Assembly: GCF_023721835.1 (NCBI RefSeq)
Contig: NZ_JAMKFE010000005.1
Span: 1 to 64,000, forward strand
Reading direction: 5' to 3'
Length of the DNA: 64,000 bases
From: Caldimonas mangrovi
GTDB taxonomy: Bacteria; Pseudomonadota; Gammaproteobacteria; Burkholderiales; Burkholderiaceae_C
Position 1 is the first letter of the stretch. Each line of letters begins with the position of its first letter. Below are positions 9,445 to 30,107 of the stretch, piece by piece. The position numbers and the translations under genes are program-made. The notes below the pieces were generated by a model. The model did not search any database. It worked only from the letters and a program-made list of their open reading frames with translations, and was not told the DNA's origin.

Positions 9445-9878
9445 CGGTGCGGGGATTTCAGGAAGGCCGCGAACCCGGGATCGGCGTAGGCGGCGGGCGG
9501 CAGGTCGTCGGCGAGTAGCGCGGCGTCGATGTCTGCCGCATCCTTCACCTGACGTGCCAGATGCCCCTCGTGAATGAAGAACAGGCCGGCGAAGAGCAGC
9601 AGCCACGGTAGCGCGGAGGCGATGAGCCACAACAGGCGCCTGGGCGCCTGTCCCCCGACGAGCGCAGTGGCCGCCCCCATGGCGACCACCTCGGAGGCAA
9701 CCTCCGGTTTTGCATGTTTGCGACGGCCGAGCGCCTGCTCGCGAGCGAAGCGCAGGCGCTCGGAGACATCGGCCGGCAACTGCGCGGCGGATTCGGACAG
9801 AGCCGAACCCAGGCGCAGCGCAAAGCGAGCTTCGAGCGCTTCGAGTTCGGCGGTTTGCTGGGGCGACAGTGATTTCAT
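9441..9878 (-). CDS. DUF3619 protein, one-TM candidate anti-sigma factor
   Basis: A 145-residue protein with a charged helical N-terminal region (residues 1-80), one TM helix (about 82-102) and a short polar C-terminal part. It is coupled by 4-bp ATGA overlaps to the sigma factor upstream and to DUF3106 downstream. This arrangement, with a cytoplasmic N-terminus and a single TM beside an ECF-like sigma factor, is the usual layout of membrane anti-sigma factors. That function is inference: no zinc anti-sigma HxxxCxxC motif is present. Confidence 0.75.
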   Translation of the reverse strand: MKSLSPQQTAELEALEARFALRLGSALSESAAQLPADVSERLRFAREQALGRRKHAKPEVASEVVAMGAATALVGGQAPRRLLWLIASALPWLLLFAGLFFIHEGHLARQVKDAADIDAALLADDLPPAAYADPGFAAFLKSPHR

Positions 9879-10441
9879 GGTGCGATTCCCTTGGCTCTCA
9901 GGGCGCGCGCCAAGGCATGCACCGCTCTGGAGCAGTGCGTCTTGACGCTGCCTTCCGAGCAGCCCATGACAGCAGCAGTCTCGGCGACGTCGAGCTCTTC
10001 CCAGTAACGCATCAAAAACGCCTCGCGTTGACGCGGAGGCAACTTCTCCACCTCGATCTCGATGGTGCGCAGGAGCTGTAGGCGCGACACCGAGTCGGAA
10101 GCGCTTTCCGTGCCAGCCGACGCATCGAGCGATTCCAGCGTTTCAAGCAGATCGAAGTCTCCGTCCGGATCGCTCGACTCGAAGCTCGAAAAGCTTTGAA
10201 CCACGGCGTCACGCACCTTCTGACGGCGAAACCAGTCGGTGGTGGCGTTGGAAAGGATACGTTGGAACAGCAGGGGCAATTCTGCCGTCGGGCGGTCGCC
10301 GTACTTTTCGGCCAGCCGAATCATGGCATCCTGCACGATATCCAGTGCAGCGTCGGCGTCGCGCACGGCGTAGAGCACCCGCTTGAAGGCCCGCTTGTCG
10401 ACGCTCTTGAGGAAATCAGACAGTTCTCGTTCGCTGGCCAA
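9875..10441 (-). CDS. RNA polymerase sigma factor, ECF-like
   Basis: A 188-residue sigma-70 family protein with region 2 (RDADAALDIVQDAMIRLAEKY and the DWFRRQKVRD block) and region 4 (LPPRQREAFLMRYWEELDVAETA followed by GCSEGSVKTHCSRA). There is no region 1 or 3. The TTG at 10441 places the start just before ASERELSDFL, the expected beginning; a GTG seven codons upstream is possible, and the longer frame upstream is non-coding. It heads the operon with DUF3619, DUF3106, RDD, dgkA and LOG genes and diverges from ilvB across about 260 bp that hold no other recognisable gene. Confidence 0.88.
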   Translation of the reverse strand: MASERELSDFLKSVDKRAFKRVLYAVRDADAALDIVQDAMIRLAEKYGDRPTAELPLLFQRILSNATTDWFRRQKVRDAVVQSFSSFESSDPDGDFDLLETLESLDASAGTESASDSVSRLQLLRTIEIEVEKLPPRQREAFLMRYWEELDVAETAAVMGCSEGSVKTHCSRAVHALARALRAKGIAP

Positions 10442-10700
10442 AGGCAGAGGGTGCGGGCGCACCGGAAGGGCAACCGAAAAATTATCGCATTGCACCGTAA
10501 CTACGCGGAAACCCGGCGGCCAGAGCGCGTAAAAGTGCGCCGCAATGCCATAATGCTGCTTTGCACAACATACGGGTCTCGACTCGGACGCCCGACCTGG
10601 GCCTCCTCGTTCATGACCGCGCAGGCTCCACACCCGCCTCACGAGGGCGCGGAAAGGAGCACCGATCGTTTTTCGTTAGAGAAATTCAGAAAGGTTCGAA

Positions 10701-12494
10701 ATGGACATGTCTGCCGCGGAACTCAAGCGTGCCGCCGCCTCGACGGATGGCAAAGCCTCCCCGCAAAATACATCTCATCAAGAAGAGCTGAACGGCTCCG
10801 ACATCCTGGTGCGCTGCCTCCAGGAGGAGAACGTCAAGTACATCTGGGGCTACCCCGGAGGTGCGGTCCTCTACATCTACGACGCGCTCTACAAGCAGAA
10901 GACGATCGAGCACGTGCTCGTGCGGCACGAGCAGGCCGCGGTCCACGCGGCTGACGGCTATGCGCGAGCCACCGGTGAAGTCGGCGTGGCGCTGGTCACC
11001 TCGGGCCCGGGCGTGACGAACGCGATCACCGGCATCGCGACCGCCTACATGGACTCGATCCCGATGGTGATCGTGACCGGGCAGGTGCCGACCCCTGCCA
11101 TCGGCCTCGACGCCTTCCAGGAGTGCGACACCGTCGGCATCACACGCCCGATCGTCAAGCACAACTTCCTCGTAAAGGACGTGCGTGACTTGGCCAGAAC
11201 GCTGAAGAAAGCCTTTCACATCGCACGCACCGGTCGCCCCGGCCCGGTGGTGGTGGACATCCCGAAGGACGTGTCGCTGAAGACCACGGCCTTCGAGTAC
11301 CCCGACACGGTCGAGATGCGCTCGTACAACCCGGTGCGCAAGGGCCATGGCGGGCAGATCCGCAAGGCGGTGCAATTGCTGATGAGCGCGCGCCGGCCGT
11401 ACATCTACACCGGCGGCGGCGTGATTCTCGGCAATGCGTCGGCCGAGTTGCGCGAACTCGTCGACCTGCTGGGTTACCCCTGCACCAACACGCTGATGGG
11501 GCTGGGCGCCTATCCGTCGAGCGATCCGAAGTTCCTCGGCATGCTGGGCATGCATGGTACCTACGAAGCCAACATGACCATGCAGAACTGCGACGTTCTG
11601 CTGGCCGTGGGGGCGCGCTTCGATGACCGCGTGATCGGCAATCCGAAGCATTTCTCGTCGGTCGAGCGCAAGATCATTCACGTCGACATCGACCCGTCGT
11701 CGATCTCCAAGCGCGTGAAGGTCGACATCCCTATCGTCGGCGACGTGAAGGACGTGCTGCAAGAGTTGATCGCTCAGATCAAGGAGCAGCAGTCGCGGCC
11801 CGAGGCGCAGGCTTTGTCGGCGTGGTGGGGGCAGATCAACGAATGGCGCAAGCGTGAGTGCCTGAAGTACAAGCGTTCCACCGAGGTCATCAAGCCCCAG
11901 TACGTGGTCGAGACGTTGTGGGAGCTGACAAAGGATCGCGAGACGTACATCACGTCCGATGTCGGCCAGCATCAGATGTGGGCTGCGCAGTTCTACCGCT
12001 TCGAGGAGCCGCGTCGCTGGATCAACTCGGGCGGCCTGGGCACGATGGGCGTCGGCCTGCCGTATGCGATGGGCATCAAGCTCGCCAAGCCCGATGCCGA
12101 CGTGTTCTGTATCACCGGCGAGGGTTCGATCCAGATGTGCATCCAGGAGCTGTCGACCTGCCAGCAATACCAGACGCCGGTGAAGGTCGTGTCGCTGAAC
12201 AACGGCTATCTCGGCATGGTGCGCCAGTGGCAGCAGCTCGACTATGGCGGCCGCTACTCGCACAGCTACATGGATGCGCTGCCCGACTTCGTGAAGCTCG
12301 CCGAGGCGTATGGCCACGTCGGGCTGCTGGTCGAGAGGCCGCAGGACGTGGAGCCCGCGTTGCGCGAGGCGATGAAGCTGAAGGACCGCACGGTCTTCCT
12401 CGACGTGCGTACCGATCCGACCGAGAACGTCTGGCCGATGGTCCAGGCGGGCAAGGGCATCACGGAGATGCTGCTGGGATCCGAGGACCTCTGA
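10701..12494 (+). CDS. ilvB: Acetolactate synthase, large (catalytic) subunit
   Basis: A 597-residue ThDP- and FAD-dependent enzyme for the first common step of valine, leucine and isoleucine synthesis (2 pyruvate to acetolactate; pyruvate plus 2-oxobutyrate to acetohydroxybutyrate). The ThDP-activating Glu lies in RHEQAAVHAADGYAR. The ThDP/Mg2+ domain has GEGSIQMCIQEL followed by NNGYLGMVRQWQ. The first 30 residues are polar and poorly conserved. The ATG at 10701 has AGAAAGG six bases upstream. ilvN and ilvC follow. No leader peptide rich in Val/Leu/Ile was found in the 260 bp upstream. Confidence 0.96.
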   Translation: MDMSAAELKRAAASTDGKASPQNTSHQEELNGSDILVRCLQEENVKYIWGYPGGAVLYIYDALYKQKTIEHVLVRHEQAAVHAADGYARATGEVGVALVTSGPGVTNAITGIATAYMDSIPMVIVTGQVPTPAIGLDAFQECDTVGITRPIVKHNFLVKDVRDLARTLKKAFHIARTGRPGPVVVDIPKDVSLKTTAFEYPDTVEMRSYNPVRKGHGGQIRKAVQLLMSARRPYIYTGGGVILGNASAELRELVDLLGYPCTNTLMGLGAYPSSDPKFLGMLGMHGTYEANMTMQNCDVLLAVGARFDDRVIGNPKHFSSVERKIIHVDIDPSSISKRVKVDIPIVGDVKDVLQELIAQIKEQQSRPEAQALSAWWGQINEWRKRECLKYKRSTEVIKPQYVVETLWELTKDRETYITSDVGQHQMWAAQFYRFEEPRRWINSGGLGTMGVGLPYAMGIKLAKPDADVFCITGEGSIQMCIQELSTCQQYQTPVKVVSLNNGYLGMVRQWQQLDYGGRYSHSYMDALPDFVKLAEAYGHVGLLVERPQDVEPALREAMKLKDRTVFLDVRTDPTENVWPMVQAGKGITEMLLGSEDL

Positions 12495-12651
12495 AGGCTG
12501 GCAAGCCCGGCAAGGGTGCACCCGTTACCGCGGGGCGCCAGGCGCCGGGTGGACAGTCCACAAGGCTCGGACGAATCTTTCCATCGATCGAAAGGCGTGG
12601 CCAAGGGCCTGCGGTTACCGCCGCCGGCCTGAAGAGCGCGAACAACGACAC

Positions 12652-13143
12652 ATGAAACACATCATCGCAGTGCTGCTGGAGAACGAGCCGGGCGCTCTCT
12701 CCCGCGTGGTGGGCCTGTTTTCGGCCCGCGGCTACAACATCGAGAGCCTCACGGTCGCACCGACCGAAGACCCGTCGCTATCGCGCATGACGATCGTCAC
12801 GACCGGCTCGGACGACGTGATCGAGCAGATCACCAAGCACTTGAACCGGCTGATCGAGGTGGTGAAGGTCGTCGACCTGACCGAGGGCAGCTACACCGAG
12901 CGCGAACTCATGCTCATCAAGGTGCGCGCGGTCGGCAAGGAGCGCGAGGAGATGAAACGCATGGCCGATATCTTCCGCGGGCGCATCGTCGACGTGACCG
13001 AGAAGACCTACACGATCGAACTCACCGGCGACGCGAGCAAGCTCGACGCCTTCATCGAGGCGATCGATCGCACCTCGATCCTCGAGACCGTGCGCACCGG
13101 CACCAGCGGCATTGGCCGCGGCGAGCGCATCCTGCGCGTCTGA
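12652..13143 (+). CDS. ilvN: Acetolactate synthase, small (regulatory) subunit
   Basis: A 163-residue regulatory subunit with an N-terminal ACT domain (MKHIIAVLLENEPGALSRVV, valine-binding) and the C-terminal domain that activates the large subunit. It stimulates IlvB and confers valine feedback. It follows ilvB after 157 bp that contain short inverted repeats (GGCGCC twice, GTGGACAGTCCAC) but no open frame. In many species the gene is named ilvH. Confidence 0.95.
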   Translation: MKHIIAVLLENEPGALSRVVGLFSARGYNIESLTVAPTEDPSLSRMTIVTTGSDDVIEQITKHLNRLIEVVKVVDLTEGSYTERELMLIKVRAVGKEREEMKRMADIFRGRIVDVTEKTYTIELTGDASKLDAFIEAIDRTSILETVRTGTSGIGRGERILRV

Positions 13144-13153
13144 ACCCCTTACC

Positions 13154-14285
<1,132 letters not shown>

Positions 14286-14304
14286 TCGCCACACGGTGCG
14301 ACGA

Positions 14305-14333
14305 AAAGCCGCGGCCCCGTCCGCGGCTTTTTT
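14305..14333 (+). terminator. ilvC terminator
   Basis: A perfect 10-bp stem AAAGCCGCGG/CCGCGGCTTT with a 6-base loop and a TTTTTT tail lies 19 bp after ilvC. It separates the ilv genes from pssA. The following 200 bp to pssA hold no recognisable gene. Confidence 0.93.
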
Positions 14334-14539
14334 GTTGCGGGGCTGTTGTATTCTCGCGCCCATGACCTTTCCAGTATGGCGACCCTGGTGCTCCGGTGCG
14401 GGCGCACCCTTTGCTAGCTACTCGGAGGCGAGACCTCGAACGAGCGCCGACGCAGCCGACGCGCTGTGACGGCGGCTGAACGGGCGCGGGCCTCACGCGG
14501 GCGCCGCGCGTTCTCTTCCTTCCACGCCGGAAGACCGAC

Positions 14540-15364
14540 ATGAACGATATGCAGGATCCTCAGCCGAGCCCCTCCGCCGAGGTGATACGGCCCCGCCGCA
14601 AGGGCATCTACATCCTTCCGAACCTGTTCACGCTGGCGGCGCTGTTCGCCGGCTTCTACGCGGTTGTGATGGCAATGAACGGGCGTTTCGACCTGGCGGC
14701 TGTCGGCATCTTCAGCGCGGCCGTACTCGACAGCCTCGATGGCCGGGTCGCGCGCATGACCAACACGCAGAGCACCTTCGGCGAGCAGATGGACAGTTTG
14801 TCGGACATGGTGTCCTTCGGCGCTGCGCCCTCGCTCATAATCTACGAGTGGGCGCTGCAAGGCCTCGGCAAGCTGGGCTGGCTCGCGGCCTTTGTCTACT
14901 GCGCGGGGGCCGCGCTGCGGCTGGCGCGCTTCAACACCAACATCGGCGTCGTCGACAAGCGCTTCTTCCAGGGTCTGCCCAGCCCGGCTGCTGCCGCGAT
15001 GGTGATCGGGCTGGTCTGGGTGATGGACGACATGGGCTACAAGGGGGTCGAGCACATCGCGTGGCTGGCCTGGACGGCCTTCGGCTTCACCGTCTATGCC
15101 GGGCTGACGATGGTGACCAACGTGCCGTTCTACAGCTTCAAGGACGTGAGCTTCAAGCGGACCGTGCCGTTCATTGTGATCGTCGCGATCGCGCTCGGCT
15201 TCGCCGTCGTGGCCTACGACCCGCCGCGGGTGCTGTTCGGGCTGTTTGTTGTCTATGGGGTGTCGGGTTATGTGGTCTATGCGATCCGCAAGTCGAAGGG
15301 CACGCCCGTCAGCGTGATCGCGACGTCGACCGAAGAGCCCGACGAGAAGGGCCTGCATCAGTGA
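14540..15364 (+). CDS. pssA: CDP-diacylglycerol--serine O-phosphatidyltransferase
   Basis: A 274-residue polytopic membrane enzyme that makes phosphatidylserine from CDP-diacylglycerol and serine. The CDP-alcohol phosphatidyltransferase motif is complete: D67-G-x2-A71-R72-x8-G81-x3-D85-x3-D89. Six to eight hydrophobic segments follow, and the C-terminal tail is short and polar. In many Burkholderiales psd (phosphatidylserine decarboxylase) lies between ilvC and pssA; here there is only about 250 bp of non-coding sequence. Confidence 0.95.
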   Translation: MNDMQDPQPSPSAEVIRPRRKGIYILPNLFTLAALFAGFYAVVMAMNGRFDLAAVGIFSAAVLDSLDGRVARMTNTQSTFGEQMDSLSDMVSFGAAPSLIIYEWALQGLGKLGWLAAFVYCAGAALRLARFNTNIGVVDKRFFQGLPSPAAAAMVIGLVWVMDDMGYKGVEHIAWLAWTAFGFTVYAGLTMVTNVPFYSFKDVSFKRTVPFIVIVAIALGFAVVAYDPPRVLFGLFVVYGVSGYVVYAIRKSKGTPVSVIATSTEEPDEKGLHQ

Positions 15365-15389
15365 GCCGCCGGGGAGTTGCCGCGCGTCG

Positions 15390-15416
15390 TTGTACCGGTT
15401 GCGTGCGTGGTATATT
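15390..15416 (+). promoter_or_regulatory. Predicted leuA leader promoter (extended -10)
   Basis: The -10 element TATATT (15411-15416) is preceded by TG-n, giving an extended -10. A -35-like TTGTAC lies at 15390-15395 with a short 15-bp spacer. The A of the leader ATG is the eighth base after the -10, so transcription could begin at or next to that codon. Confidence 0.62.
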
Positions 15417-15423
15417 GGCCGCC

Positions 15424-15483
15424 ATGTCGATACACATGGCCGCCATCTCGCTAGGACTTCTAGGAGTGCTTCGGGCGCGCTGA
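15424..15483 (+). CDS. leuL: leu operon leader peptide
   Basis: A 19-codon frame, MSIHMAAISLGLLGVLRAR, ends in TGA. Its four leucine codons are CTA, CTT, CTA and CTT, all rare in this GC-rich genome where CTG and CTC dominate, and two GGA codons and an ATA add slow codons. It lies just after a promoter-like element and 27 bp before an intrinsic terminator that precedes leuA. This is the classic layout of transcription attenuation by leucine supply. No Shine-Dalgarno is seen; initiation at 15424 could be leaderless, and an in-frame ATG at 15436 is an alternative. Confidence 0.75.
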   Translation: MSIHMAAISLGLLGVLRAR

Positions 15484-15510
15484 TGAGACACGTCTAGGTT
15501 TTCAAGCATC

Positions 15511-15545
15511 AACGGCCCGCAAGCGCACAGCTGGCGGGCCGTTTT
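15511..15545 (+). terminator. leuA attenuator terminator
   Basis: AACGGCCCGC (15511-15520) pairs perfectly with GCGGGCCGTT (15534-15543) around a 13-base loop, ending in TTTT. It stands between the leucine-rich leader peptide and leuA. The leader's CGGGC (in ctt-cgg-gcg) could pair with the GCCCG of the left arm and act as antiterminator when ribosomes stall at the Leu codons; that pairing is inferred. Confidence 0.82.
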
Positions 15546-15588
15546 GCATTGGTTCTCGCAATCCCGGCATCCACATACGGAGTTCATC

Positions 15589-17130
15589 ATGGCCGACAAG
15601 CTGATCATTTTCGACACGACCTTGCGTGACGGCGAGCAGTCGCCCGGCGCCTCGATGACGAAGGACGAGAAGCTGCGGATCGCCCGCCAGCTCGAGCGGA
15701 TGCGTGTCGACGTGATCGAGGCGGGGTTCGCTGCCTCTTCCAACGGCGACTTCGAGGCGGTCAAGGCGATTGCGGACGTGGTGAAGGAGTCGACGGTGTG
15801 TTCGCTGGCTCGCGCCAACGATCGCGACATCGCCCGCGCGGCCGAGGCGCTGAAGGGCGCCCGCTCGGCACGCATCCATACCTTCATCGCGACCAGCCCG
15901 TTGCACATGGAGAAGAAGCTGCGCATGACGCCTGATCAGGTGTTCGAGCAGGCCAAGCTGGCGGTGCGCTTCGCGAAGAACCTGACGGGCGACGTCGAGT
16001 TCTCGCCTGAGGACGGCTACCGTTCGGAAGTCGACTTTCTGTGCCGGGTGCTCGAGGCCGTGATTGCCGAGGGCGCAACGACGATCAACATCCCTGACAC
16101 CGTCGGCTATGCGATTCCCGAGCTCTATGGCAACTTCATCAAGACGCTGCGCGAGCGCATTCCCAACGCCGACAAGGCGGTGTGGTCGGTGCACTGCCAC
16201 AACGATCTCGGCATGGCCGTCGCGAACTCGCTGGCCGGCGTGAAGATCGGCGGTGCACGCCAGATCGAATGCACGATCAACGGCCTGGGCGAGCGCGCGG
16301 GCAACTGCGCGCTCGAAGAGGTGGTGATGGCGATGCGCACGCGGCGCGACTACTTCGGGCTGGAACTCGGGATTGATACCTCGCAAATTGTGCCGGCCTC
16401 GCGGCTCGTGTCGCAGACAACGGGCTTCGTCGTGCAGCCGAACAAGGCCGTGGTCGGTGCGAACGCCTTCGCGCATGCTTCGGGCATTCACCAGGACGGC
16501 GTGCTGAAGGCGCGAGACACCTACGAGATCATGCGTGCCGAGGACGTCGGCTGGGCGGCCAACAAGATCGTGCTGGGCAAGCTGTCGGGCCGCAATGCAT
16601 TCAAGCAGCGTCTGCAGGAGTTGGGGATCGAACTCGATTCCGAAAGCGAGATCAACGCTGCGTTCGCCAAGTTCAAGGAACTGGCAGACCGCAAGAGCGA
16701 GATCTTCGACGAGGACATCATCGCGTTGGTGAGCGACGAGAGCGTGACCAGCGAACACGAGCACTATCGGCTGTTGGCACTGTCGCAACGCTCCGAAATG
16801 GGGGAGCGGCCACATGCCAAAGTGGCGTTTGCCGTCGGCGAGCAGGAGTTTCACGCCGAAAGCGACGGCAACGGCCCGGTTGATGCGAGCCTCAAGGCGA
16901 TCGAGACCAAGGTGCAAAGTGGCGCCGAAATGCTCCTCTATTCGGTCAATGCAATCACCTCTGGCAGCACAGAATCGCAGGGTGAAGTGACGGTCCGGCT
17001 GCAGCATGGCGGGCGGGTCGTCAACGGTGTCGGTGCGGATCCGGACATCGTGGTGGCGTCGGCCAAGGCCTATCTGGCGGCGCTGAACAAGTTGCACAGC
17101 AAGTCCGAACGCGTGGCGGCTCAGGGTTGA
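15589..17130 (+). CDS. leuA: 2-isopropylmalate synthase
   Basis: A 513-residue first enzyme of leucine synthesis: acetyl-CoA + 2-oxoisovalerate to 2-isopropylmalate. The N-terminal TIM barrel has [11 protein letters not shown] (catalytic Arg/Asp), the metal ligands in HCHND, and GIHQDG. The C-terminal LeuA dimer domain mediates leucine feedback. The ATG at 15589 has CGGAG six bases upstream; an earlier start at 15544 would overlap the attenuator and is rejected. Confidence 0.97.
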
Positions 17131-17190
17131 CCCGGTGTGAATTTTTGACGTTCACCCGAGACTTGAGAAAGAACGTGTAAGTTTTTGATC

Positions 17191-17219
17191 TTGCGCGGCT
17201 TTTTCCCTTCGCCTACACT
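17191..17219 (+). promoter_or_regulatory. Predicted promoter of pbpG
   Basis: TTGCGC (17191-17196) and TACACT (17214-17219) are separated by exactly 17 bp. The element lies 28 bp upstream of the predicted GTG start. Confidence 0.55.
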
Positions 17220-17246
17220 CGGTTCGCCAAGCTGTTGGAGGTTGCC

Positions 17247-18362
17247 GTGTCGGCGTTGGGCAAGTTGTTCGGGTTTCGTTGGTGGGCTTCACTGATGGTC
17301 GCATGCATGTTGGCCACCGGCTCGGCCTCGGCCGCAGCGGCGGCCAAGAAGTCCGAATCGAAACGGGCCACCGCGACCAGCGTGGCCAAAAAGCCGGCCG
17401 GCAAGCGGTCGACCTCGGTCAACCGGGCGGTTCGGGTGAAGGCGTCGAGCCGCGCCAAGCAGCGTGTGCGCTCGGCGGCCCGGGGGGGCGCGAATGTGCG
17501 CCGTGCCTCGGTCGTCGTTCCCGCGCGGTTGTCGTATGGGCAGGTCTATGGTCTGCATGAGACGGCAGACCCCCTCGATCTGAAATCCAGCGTTGCGCTG
17601 GTGCTCGACCAGGAGACCAATGAGGTCCTGCTCAGCAAGAATTCCCAGGCGGTGCTGCCGATCGCGTCTCTGACCAAGCTGATGACCGCGCTGGTCGTCA
17701 TCGAGGCGCAACAGCCGCTCGACGAAGTCCTCACGATCACGGCGGAAGATATCGACACCGAGAAGGGCAGCAGCTCACGGCTGGCGCTCGGCACGGAGCT
17801 CACTCGTGGTGAGATGCTGCACCTGGCGTTGATGTCGTCCGAGAACCGGGCTGCCAATGCACTCGGTCGGCACTTTCCCGGCGGCTTGGCGGCTTTCGTT
17901 ACCGCGATGAACCACAAGGCGGCCGAGTTGGGCATGCAAGATACGCGCTACGTCGAGCCGACGGGCCTGTCGAGCCGCAATCAATCGAGCGCCCGGGATC
18001 TGGCAACCCTGGTGAAAACTGCGCACCATTACCCCTTGATCCGTGAACTCTCGACCTCCCCGGAGTACGAGGTGGCGGTCGGCAAGCGCCACCTGCAGTA
18101 CCGCAATACCAACGGGCTGGTGTTCAATCCGACCTGGGAGATCGGCCTGCAGAAGACGGGCTACATCTCTGAAGCAGGGCGTTGCCTGGTCATGCAGGCC
18201 CAGTTGGCGGGACGCAAGCTGATCATGGTGTTCCTGGACTCGACAGGCCGCTATTCCCGCATCGGCGATGCCGAGCGGGTGCGCAAGTGGCTCGAAGAGC
18301 TGTCGTTGTCCGAAGAGCCGGAGATGCCGGATACCGAAGTGTTGCCCCGCGTCACCTCGTGA
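17247..18362 (+). CDS. pbpG: D-alanyl-D-alanine endopeptidase, PBP7/8 type
   Basis: A 371-residue periplasmic serine peptidase that cleaves D-Ala-meso-DAP cross-links in peptidoglycan (S11 family). All three active-site motifs are present: S141-L-T-K144, S198-E-N200 and K303-T-G305. An N-terminal signal peptide (hydrophobic around residues 12-30, A-rich cleavage region) is followed by a basic Lys/Arg/Ser-rich linker to about residue 90 that is longer than in E. coli PBP7. The GTG at 17247 has TTGGAGG five bases upstream; a TTG at 17235 would start inside that ribosome-binding site. Confidence 0.92.
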   Translation: MSALGKLFGFRWWASLMVACMLATGSASAAAAAKKSESKRATATSVAKKPAGKRSTSVNRAVRVKASSRAKQRVRSAARGGANVRRASVVVPARLSYGQVYGLHETADPLDLKSSVALVLDQETNEVLLSKNSQAVLPIASLTKLMTALVVIEAQQPLDEVLTITAEDIDTEKGSSSRLALGTELTRGEMLHLALMSSENRAANALGRHFPGGLAAFVTAMNHKAAELGMQDTRYVEPTGLSSRNQSSARDLATLVKTAHHYPLIRELSTSPEYEVAVGKRHLQYRNTNGLVFNPTWEIGLQKTGYISEAGRCLVMQAQLAGRKLIMVFLDSTGRYSRIGDAERVRKWLEELSLSEEPEMPDTEVLPRVTS

Positions 18363-30020: not shown

Positions 30021-30107
30021 GCGCGGGTGGCGAAATTGGTAGACGCACCAGGTTTAGGTCCTGACGCCAGCGATGGTGTGGGGGTTCGAGTCCCCCCCCG
30101 CGCACCA
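30021..30107 (+). tRNA. tRNA-Leu (UAG)
   Basis: Acceptor GCGCGGG/CCCGCGC pairs fully, the D arm has the GGTAGACGC pattern, a long variable arm is present, the T arm has GGTTCGAGTCC, and CCA is encoded. The anticodon loop TTTAGGT gives anticodon TAG, which reads CUN including the CUA codons used in the leuA leader. The outermost anticodon-stem pair is a C-A mismatch. It directly precedes tig. Confidence 0.95.

Follow-up and report, generated by a model that had tools for sequence, protein, structure and literature searches.

What do the short Leu-rich reading frame and the terminator do that lie between pssA and leuA in Caldimonas mangrovi? We addressed this question in a stretch of 64,000 nt (the first positions of contig NZ_JAMKFE010000005.1, assembly GCF_023721835.1; ‘the window’ below) and in related genomes. 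Judging from sequence, we consider it highly likely that leuA is under a ribosome-mediated transcription attenuator which senses leucine through a leaderless leader; leuA would very probably be switched on when leucine is low. The observations behind this reading are the anatomy of the locus, its conservation, the enrichment of CTA codons in the leader, compensatory changes in the terminator and the spacing of the promoter.

The features of the locus are collected in Table 1. The first-pass annotation, made from the letters of the window, had described a TATATT box with a TG extension before leuA, a 19-codon leader with Leu codons CTA, CTT, CTA and CTT, a 27-bp gap between leader and stem, and a tRNA-Leu(UAG) gene further downstream; all are present, the promoter box by direct reading of the sequence. 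Its ‘perfect 10-bp stem’ followed by TTTT had to be recounted: the stem stands, and two T had been used twice, which leaves either 8 bp with TTTT or 10 bp with TT. It had missed the leaderless start and the wider distribution of the leader. A generic promoter and terminator scan of positions 9500–17300 found no promoter, and the leuA terminator was absent from its 11 terminator-like sites, probably because the scan has a loop limit of 3–8. As both elements were missed, a consensus scan alone would not support the attenuator claim.

Table 1. Features of the leuA locus of C. mangrovi and the matching tRNA gene (positions in the window)
Feature	Position	Strand	Remarks
pssA	14540–15364		Over NCBIfam cut-off
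Extended −10 promoter, TGGTATATT	15408–15416	+	TG 15408–15409, TATATT 15411–15416; predicted transcription start ~15423–15424
Leader ORF, 19 codons, MSIHMAAISLGLLGVLRAR, probably leaderless	15424–15483	+	ATG 15424, TGA 15481–15483
Control codons 10 (CTA), 12 (CTT), 13 (CTA), 16 (CTT)	15451–15453, 15457–15459, 15460–15462, 15469–15471	+	
Region 2, predicted antiterminator 5′ arm, GTGCTTCGGGC	15466–15476	+	Core CGGGC 15472–15476
Inner antiterminator helix, 5′ side, TGATG (predicted)	15481–15485	+	Predicted pairing with CATCA 15507–15511
Leader–terminator gap, 27 nt	15484–15510	+	
Inner antiterminator helix, 3′ side, CATCA (predicted)	15507–15511	+	
Intrinsic terminator	15511–15545	+	Stem AACGGCCCGC 15511–15520 / GCGGGCCGTT 15534–15543; T-run 15542–15545
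Region 3, GCCCGCAAGCGCAC	15515–15528	+	Pairs with region 2 (antiterminator); first part pairs with region 4 (terminator)
GGAG, Shine-Dalgarno-like, of leuA	15579–15582	+	Leader itself without one
leuA, 2-isopropylmalate synthase, 513 aa, presumed regulated gene	15589–17130	+	NF002087 (E 2.3e-273) and TIGR00973, both over cut-off
tRNA-Leu(UAG)	30021–30107	+	Reads CUA; sole UAG anticodon among 10 long tRNAs examined (50 tRNA matches)

As close loci we took the best 80 of at least 585 confirmed LeuA-encoding stretches from named genomes, which together with the window makes 81; the best matches among those listed came from Piscinibacter, a Burkholderiales MAG, Ideonella, Methylibium and Rubrivivax. 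Candidate ORFs were searched for in two ways, by Leu content alone and by Leu content plus a −10 box score. The clear leaders directly before leuA number 57, window included. No ORF was obtained in 18 of the 81 loci, the start in L041 was set by hand, and the ORFs in L005, L008, L053, L057, L063 and L080 were judged not to be the leader. The search by Leu content alone, which ignores the promoter, gave a best ORF with the same stop codon in 55 of the 57, missing L007 (GTG start) and L041.

A covariance model of leader and terminator without the promoter (R1), trained on 56 of the 57 leaders, was run on 26 loci. It found again L007 and L041, added a leader before leuA in L080 and 18 leaders located ~1.7–2.1 kb upstream of leuA, and matched L029 in part (E 7e-4). 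Counting this partial match, a leader is present in 77 of the 81 close loci; R1 had no match in L008, L034 and L073, and the upstream DNA of L017 is too short to tell. In the window's family, R1 matched 141 of 150 genomes with a cut-off of E ≤ 0.01 and 127 with one of E ≤ 1e-6, the window's genome being one of the 150 and containing a single match. Both counts are given because matches with E above ~1e-6 are mixed: among 10 such regions fetched, a LeuA homologue came next in seven (L203–L206, L209, L211 and L212) and not in three (L207, L208 and L210). At the Rfam gathering score the window matched only tRNAs and 12 relatives matched nothing; the window stretch and 20 more distant loci (see below) had sub-threshold matches only.

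After the start codon the 57 leaders contain 256 Leu codons (CTA 128, CTG 76, TTG 25, CTT 20, CTC 5, TTA 2), with at least one CTA in every leader. In leuA of the same loci CTA makes up 0.28% of 2109 Leu codons; at that rate 0.7 CTA codons would be expected in the leaders versus the 128 present, an excess of ~180-fold (50% versus 0.28%). CTA accounts for 48 of the 81 Leu codons in the 19 further leaders located by the model, and the window's ilvB, ilvN, ilvC, pssA and leuA use CTA once and CTT once among 154 Leu codons. At the sequence level, then, codons for the end product sit in the leader of leuA.

Reading of the 10 long tRNAs among 50 tRNA matches in the window's genome identified five Leu tRNAs, with anticodons CAA, CAG, GAG, UAG and UAA. 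By wobble, tRNA-Leu(GAG) may also read CUU. The proposal that rare-codon choice ties the sensor to tRNA-Leu(UAG) therefore holds for CUA and applies to CUU only in part: with tRNA-Leu(GAG) present in the genome, strict dependence on tRNA-Leu(UAG) is confined to CUA. The rare-codon principle itself is already established for the leu attenuator of Salmonella, where change of the rare CUA control codons to CUG lowered sensitivity (Carter 1986, as cited in PMC1183508).

To characterize the promoter, we took as reference the first ATG met going upstream from the Leu cluster, whatever the position of the promoter; L007, with its GTG start, was set aside, leaving 56 leaders. The distance from the end of a TAnnnT box to this ATG is 6, 7 or 8 nt in 27, 23 and 2 leaders, respectively (52 of 56), with a background of 0.004 per position, and TG plus TAnnnT occurs in all 57 close leaders. 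Shine-Dalgarno-like sequence (AGGA, GGAG or GAGG in the Shine-Dalgarno place) was seen in none of the 56 leaders versus 49 of 57 leuA starts. For the 19 leaders found by the promoter-free model, the −10 box lies at 6–10 nt in 16, and L056, L070 and L080 have none at the chosen start. A box 10 nt from the start, as in L066, L072 and L079, would mean a 5′ UTR of 3–4 nt.

In the usual promoter geometry a −10 box at this spacing puts the first transcribed base at or within ~4 nt of the start codon. Promoter and start codon lie too close together for a Shine-Dalgarno sequence to fit between them, and the position of the box together with the absence of Shine-Dalgarno-like sequence indicates that the leader mRNA is probably leaderless, with transcription starting at or within a few bases of the ATG at 15424. 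If this is true, ribosomes would load at the very 5′ end of the sensor; we infer that only RNA begun at the leader's own promoter should be translated and sense leucine.

An intrinsic terminator lies between leader and gene in 57 of 57 cases, the hairpin folding with a mean energy of −18.8 kcal/mol and a mean z of −4.43. The window's own 31-nt hairpin has −24.1 kcal/mol and a short U-tract of four T. On alignment A1 (56 rows; L040, which is the same as L038 over this stretch, is excluded) 96.6% of terminator cells are paired versus 88.7% in shuffles, and 36 cells carry a two-sided change versus 14.1. Two of the five measures were no higher than in shuffles, namely pairs with two-sided change (2 versus 1.9) and further pair types (5 versus 5.9). 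The other three are higher than in shuffles; compensatory changes are thus present in the terminator. One check that the first-pass annotation had named for its proposal was conservation in relatives; the leader frame, its Leu codons and the stem of the terminator all show it.

With the terminator 3′ arm left out, the antiterminator CGGGC:GCCCG that had been proposed for the window is predicted in all 49 leaders holding both words, the window included; the remaining 8 of the 57 do not hold both. CGGGC of region 2 is the same word as in the terminator 3′ arm. The longest complement of region 2 to the terminator 5′ arm and loop has a mean of 5.89 nt versus 4.49 nt in shuffled sequences and reaches at least 5 nt in 52 of 57 leaders. 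CGGG[CT] is read in one frame in 39 leaders and in another in 10, which argues for selection at the level of RNA, not of the peptide. Folded without the terminator 3′ arm, the 49 leaders holding both words have a mean region 2:3 pairing probability of 0.98 versus 0.78 with the middle shuffled, the native value being higher in 49 of 49. In L007, L014 and L019 the inner helix is formed by TGATC with GATCA.

Tests for covariation of the antiterminator arms gave mixed values. Its column counts on A1 were no better than those of slid controls, region 2 being one base out of register between subgroups. Own duplexes compared with swapped ones in energy gave p 0.56 in one test and p 0.02 in another (own lower in 29 of 49), comparison with shuffled region 2 gave p 0.02, and shuffling of the spacer gave p 0.21.

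The geometry of the leader fits a ribosome-operated switch. In 46 of the 57 leaders the match includes GGG, and there 14–25 nt (median 19) separate the first CTA from region 2 downstream of it; the median distance from the end of region 2 to that of the stop codon is 11 nt, close enough for a ribosome at the stop to cover region 2. For the stall states of the window, folding assumed a ribosome edge 12 nt downstream of the A site's first base. The predicted antiterminator has −26.9 kcal/mol when codon 10 occupies the A site (GTGCTTCGGGC with GCCCGCAAGCGCAC and TGATG with CATCA), and −17.0 or −16.6 kcal/mol when codon 12 or 13 does. No antiterminator is left when the ribosome is stalled at codon 16, and with the ribosome at the stop the terminator alone remains (−25.6 kcal/mol). 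Prediction (in the 49 testable leaders of the 57), geometry and window folds thus all point to a mutually exclusive antiterminator that a stalled ribosome would free. When region 4 is added, the terminator has the lowest energy in all stall states that were folded; antitermination would therefore have to be kinetic. No clear protector (1:2) hairpin was seen. The antiterminator also forms before region 4 in ribosome-free RNA, and untranslated RNA may for this reason read through.

The steps that we infer are transcription start, leaderless translation, stalling and read-through. RNA polymerase would start at or a few bases from the A of the ATG at 15424, giving a leader mRNA with no Shine-Dalgarno sequence, and a ribosome would initiate on the 5′-terminal AUG. 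With ample leucyl-tRNA the ribosome would reach the stop codon (15481–15483) and cover region 2; regions 3 and 4 would pair and transcription would end at ~15545. With leucine, above all charged tRNA-Leu(UAG), scarce, the ribosome would stall at codon 10, 12 or 13, region 2 would be free to pair with region 3 before region 4 is made, and leuA would be transcribed.

To see how far the leader extends across the order, we searched 150 of its genomes for LeuA. At E ≤ 1e-150, 128 gave a match, and from these we picked 80 upstream stretches so as to span the families (one of them, L100, has only 91 bases). Of the 80 stretches, 48, from 29 of 46 sampled families, contain a Leu-rich leader that closely follows a −10 box; L119 was dropped from this deep set as a false pick, and L122 and L127 have Leu-rich ORFs that are not counted. 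The −10 spacing in the deep set is partly circular, as the loci were chosen with a −10 box 4–10 nt before the start. A −35-like TTGC lies 17 nt before the −10 box (T 0.94, T 0.83, G 0.85, C 0.90) and was not a selection criterion. Leu codons of the deep leaders are mostly CTG (190 of 345, with 31 CTA), and many of these leaders end LLLR-x-AR. R1 matched 7 of 200 genomes of the order at E ≤ 1e-6, five belonging to the window's family and two to family f10 (L203 and L204).

In 34 of the 48 deep leaders no hairpin with a T-run was found before leuA, and seven have one with −10 kcal/mol or lower (L083, L112, L124, L132, L134, L142 and L155). The leader ends of 44 deep leaders (alignment A2, without L083, L132, L133 and L134; each row folded) all form a hairpin of −5 kcal/mol or better, with a mean z of −1.93 versus −0.19 in 368 control windows. 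G and C average 9% and 44% over the first 20 nt downstream of the stop codon, versus 28% and 28% further on (47 loci); in the window's family the same 20 nt have 18% G and 39% C. At most two G occur in these 20 nt in 34 of 47 deep loci (L087–L160), several of which continue with CAATTCG, and the tract had no Rfam match in 20 deep loci searched. A C-rich tract after the leader stop was argued to mean Rho for mycobacterial cys leaders (PMC1262725), and by this analogy the tract suggests that the deep leaders may act through Rho.

Some loci of this set have other arrangements. In L091, L105, L128, L135, L148, L157 and L158 (six families) a short gene stands before leuA instead of the leader; by eye its product looks like a small helix-turn-helix protein. 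In L096 the leader is followed by what appears by eye to be a long AT-rich inverted repeat before leuA.

In the 18 tandem loci, where R1 placed the leader well upstream (e.g. L003, leader at 618–737), the gene after the leader is of a second leuA type and precedes leuA. Its products are 63–82% identical to that of L209 (BLAST) and 26–29% identical to LeuA; the counterpart in L205 scores over the cut-off of NCBIfam leuA_yeast (checked for L205 only). The leader also stands before a distant LeuA homologue in L203, L204, L205 and L209, with L203 and L204 assigned by 28% LeuA identity only. It seems that the leader accompanies the first leuA gene of a locus, whatever the type of that gene. A second LeuA homologue, 31% identical, is encoded in the window's genome (G000:C5:139435-140988).

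The terminator could simply end pssA/ilv transcripts, with the short ORF arising by chance. It does sit between pssA and leuA, and the region has other terminator-like sites (11 versus 5.3 in shuffles). Chance would not explain a start, a Leu run and a CTA enrichment that are conserved, a promoter spacing that is nearly fixed, or a leader that goes with the first leuA gene (in the 18 tandem loci and in L203, L204, L205 and L209), and we regard this explanation as highly unlikely. Equally improbable to us is control at leuA translation. Such control has been proposed for the LEU element of actinobacteria, a putative pseudoknot in which the Leu codons and the Shine-Dalgarno sequence of leuA form the base stem (PMC1262725). 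A leaderless leader before leuA has indeed been reported in Streptomyces lividans (PMC8079986), but here a strong intrinsic terminator with compensatory changes follows the leader. Moreover, the LEU-element pairing gave no signal where it was sought: the longest complement between the Leu run and the leuA start region was 5.55 versus 5.70 in shuffled sequences (deep set only, 47 loci).

The terminated leader RNA or its peptide might also act in trans, as is reported for rnTrpL and peTrpL of Sinorhizobium meliloti; this would add to attenuation, not replace it. The layout is the same, a leaderless small mRNA ending at a terminator (PMC7298713), yet by eye little of the peptide seems conserved beyond the Leu run and CGGGC, and we find such an additional role quite unlikely. 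The reading we prefer remains transcription attenuation of leuA by a leaderless, leucine-sensing leader.

That arrangement shares with enteric leuL (Salmonella and E. coli) the Leu-rich leader, the rare CUA control codons, the choice between terminator and antiterminator and the control of leuA. In enteric bacteria, leuL lies before leuABCD and its 5′ UTR includes a Shine-Dalgarno sequence, whereas the Caldimonas leader appears leaderless and the window stretch and 12 relatives have no Rfam match. Proteobacterial attenuators were reportedly surveyed by Vitreschak in 2004. The trpL RNA of S. meliloti likewise has the leader peptide's ATG at its 5′ end and a terminator at its 3′ end (PMC7298713), but it senses tryptophan, belongs to an alphaproteobacterium and controls trpE(G). 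The actinobacterial leader (LeuL1 of S. lividans) is a leaderless Leu leader before leuA, described in PMC8079986 as being without a typical Rho-independent terminator; most of the deep betaproteobacterial leaders are similar to it in having no terminator. The leaderless leader of Corynebacterium glutamicum ilvBNC also uses a terminator and an antiterminator, there with mutational support, but controls ilvBNC through control codons CUU (Leu) and GUA (Val) (PMC11857589).

Published accounts thus already exist of leuA attenuation by ribosomes, of CUA control codons and of leaderless leader peptides. In the open-access literature we found no description of their combination in Betaproteobacteria; subscription journals fell mostly outside this search. 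A start-site study of Burkholderia cenocepacia reports leaderless transcripts, and a search of its main text gave no word starting with ‘leu’ (PMC4603805).

A tentative picture, which we hold possible rather than probable, is that a leaderless leucine leader has served leuA in Betaproteobacteria since early on and that its termination step was later exchanged. Most families that have the leader would combine the Leu run with a small GC hairpin and a C-rich, G-poor tract and use Rho or another terminator-free route, and the window's family would have gained the rare-codon sensor, the intrinsic terminator and the matching antiterminator. Families that share the leader and differ in the terminator would offer a natural series on how the termination step of attenuators changes. 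Sensing through one rare isoacceptor has, to our knowledge, been argued mainly from enteric bacteria so far; the large CTA excess gives it comparative support. With the leader described here, leucine control of leuA in this betaproteobacterial group becomes testable from sequence.
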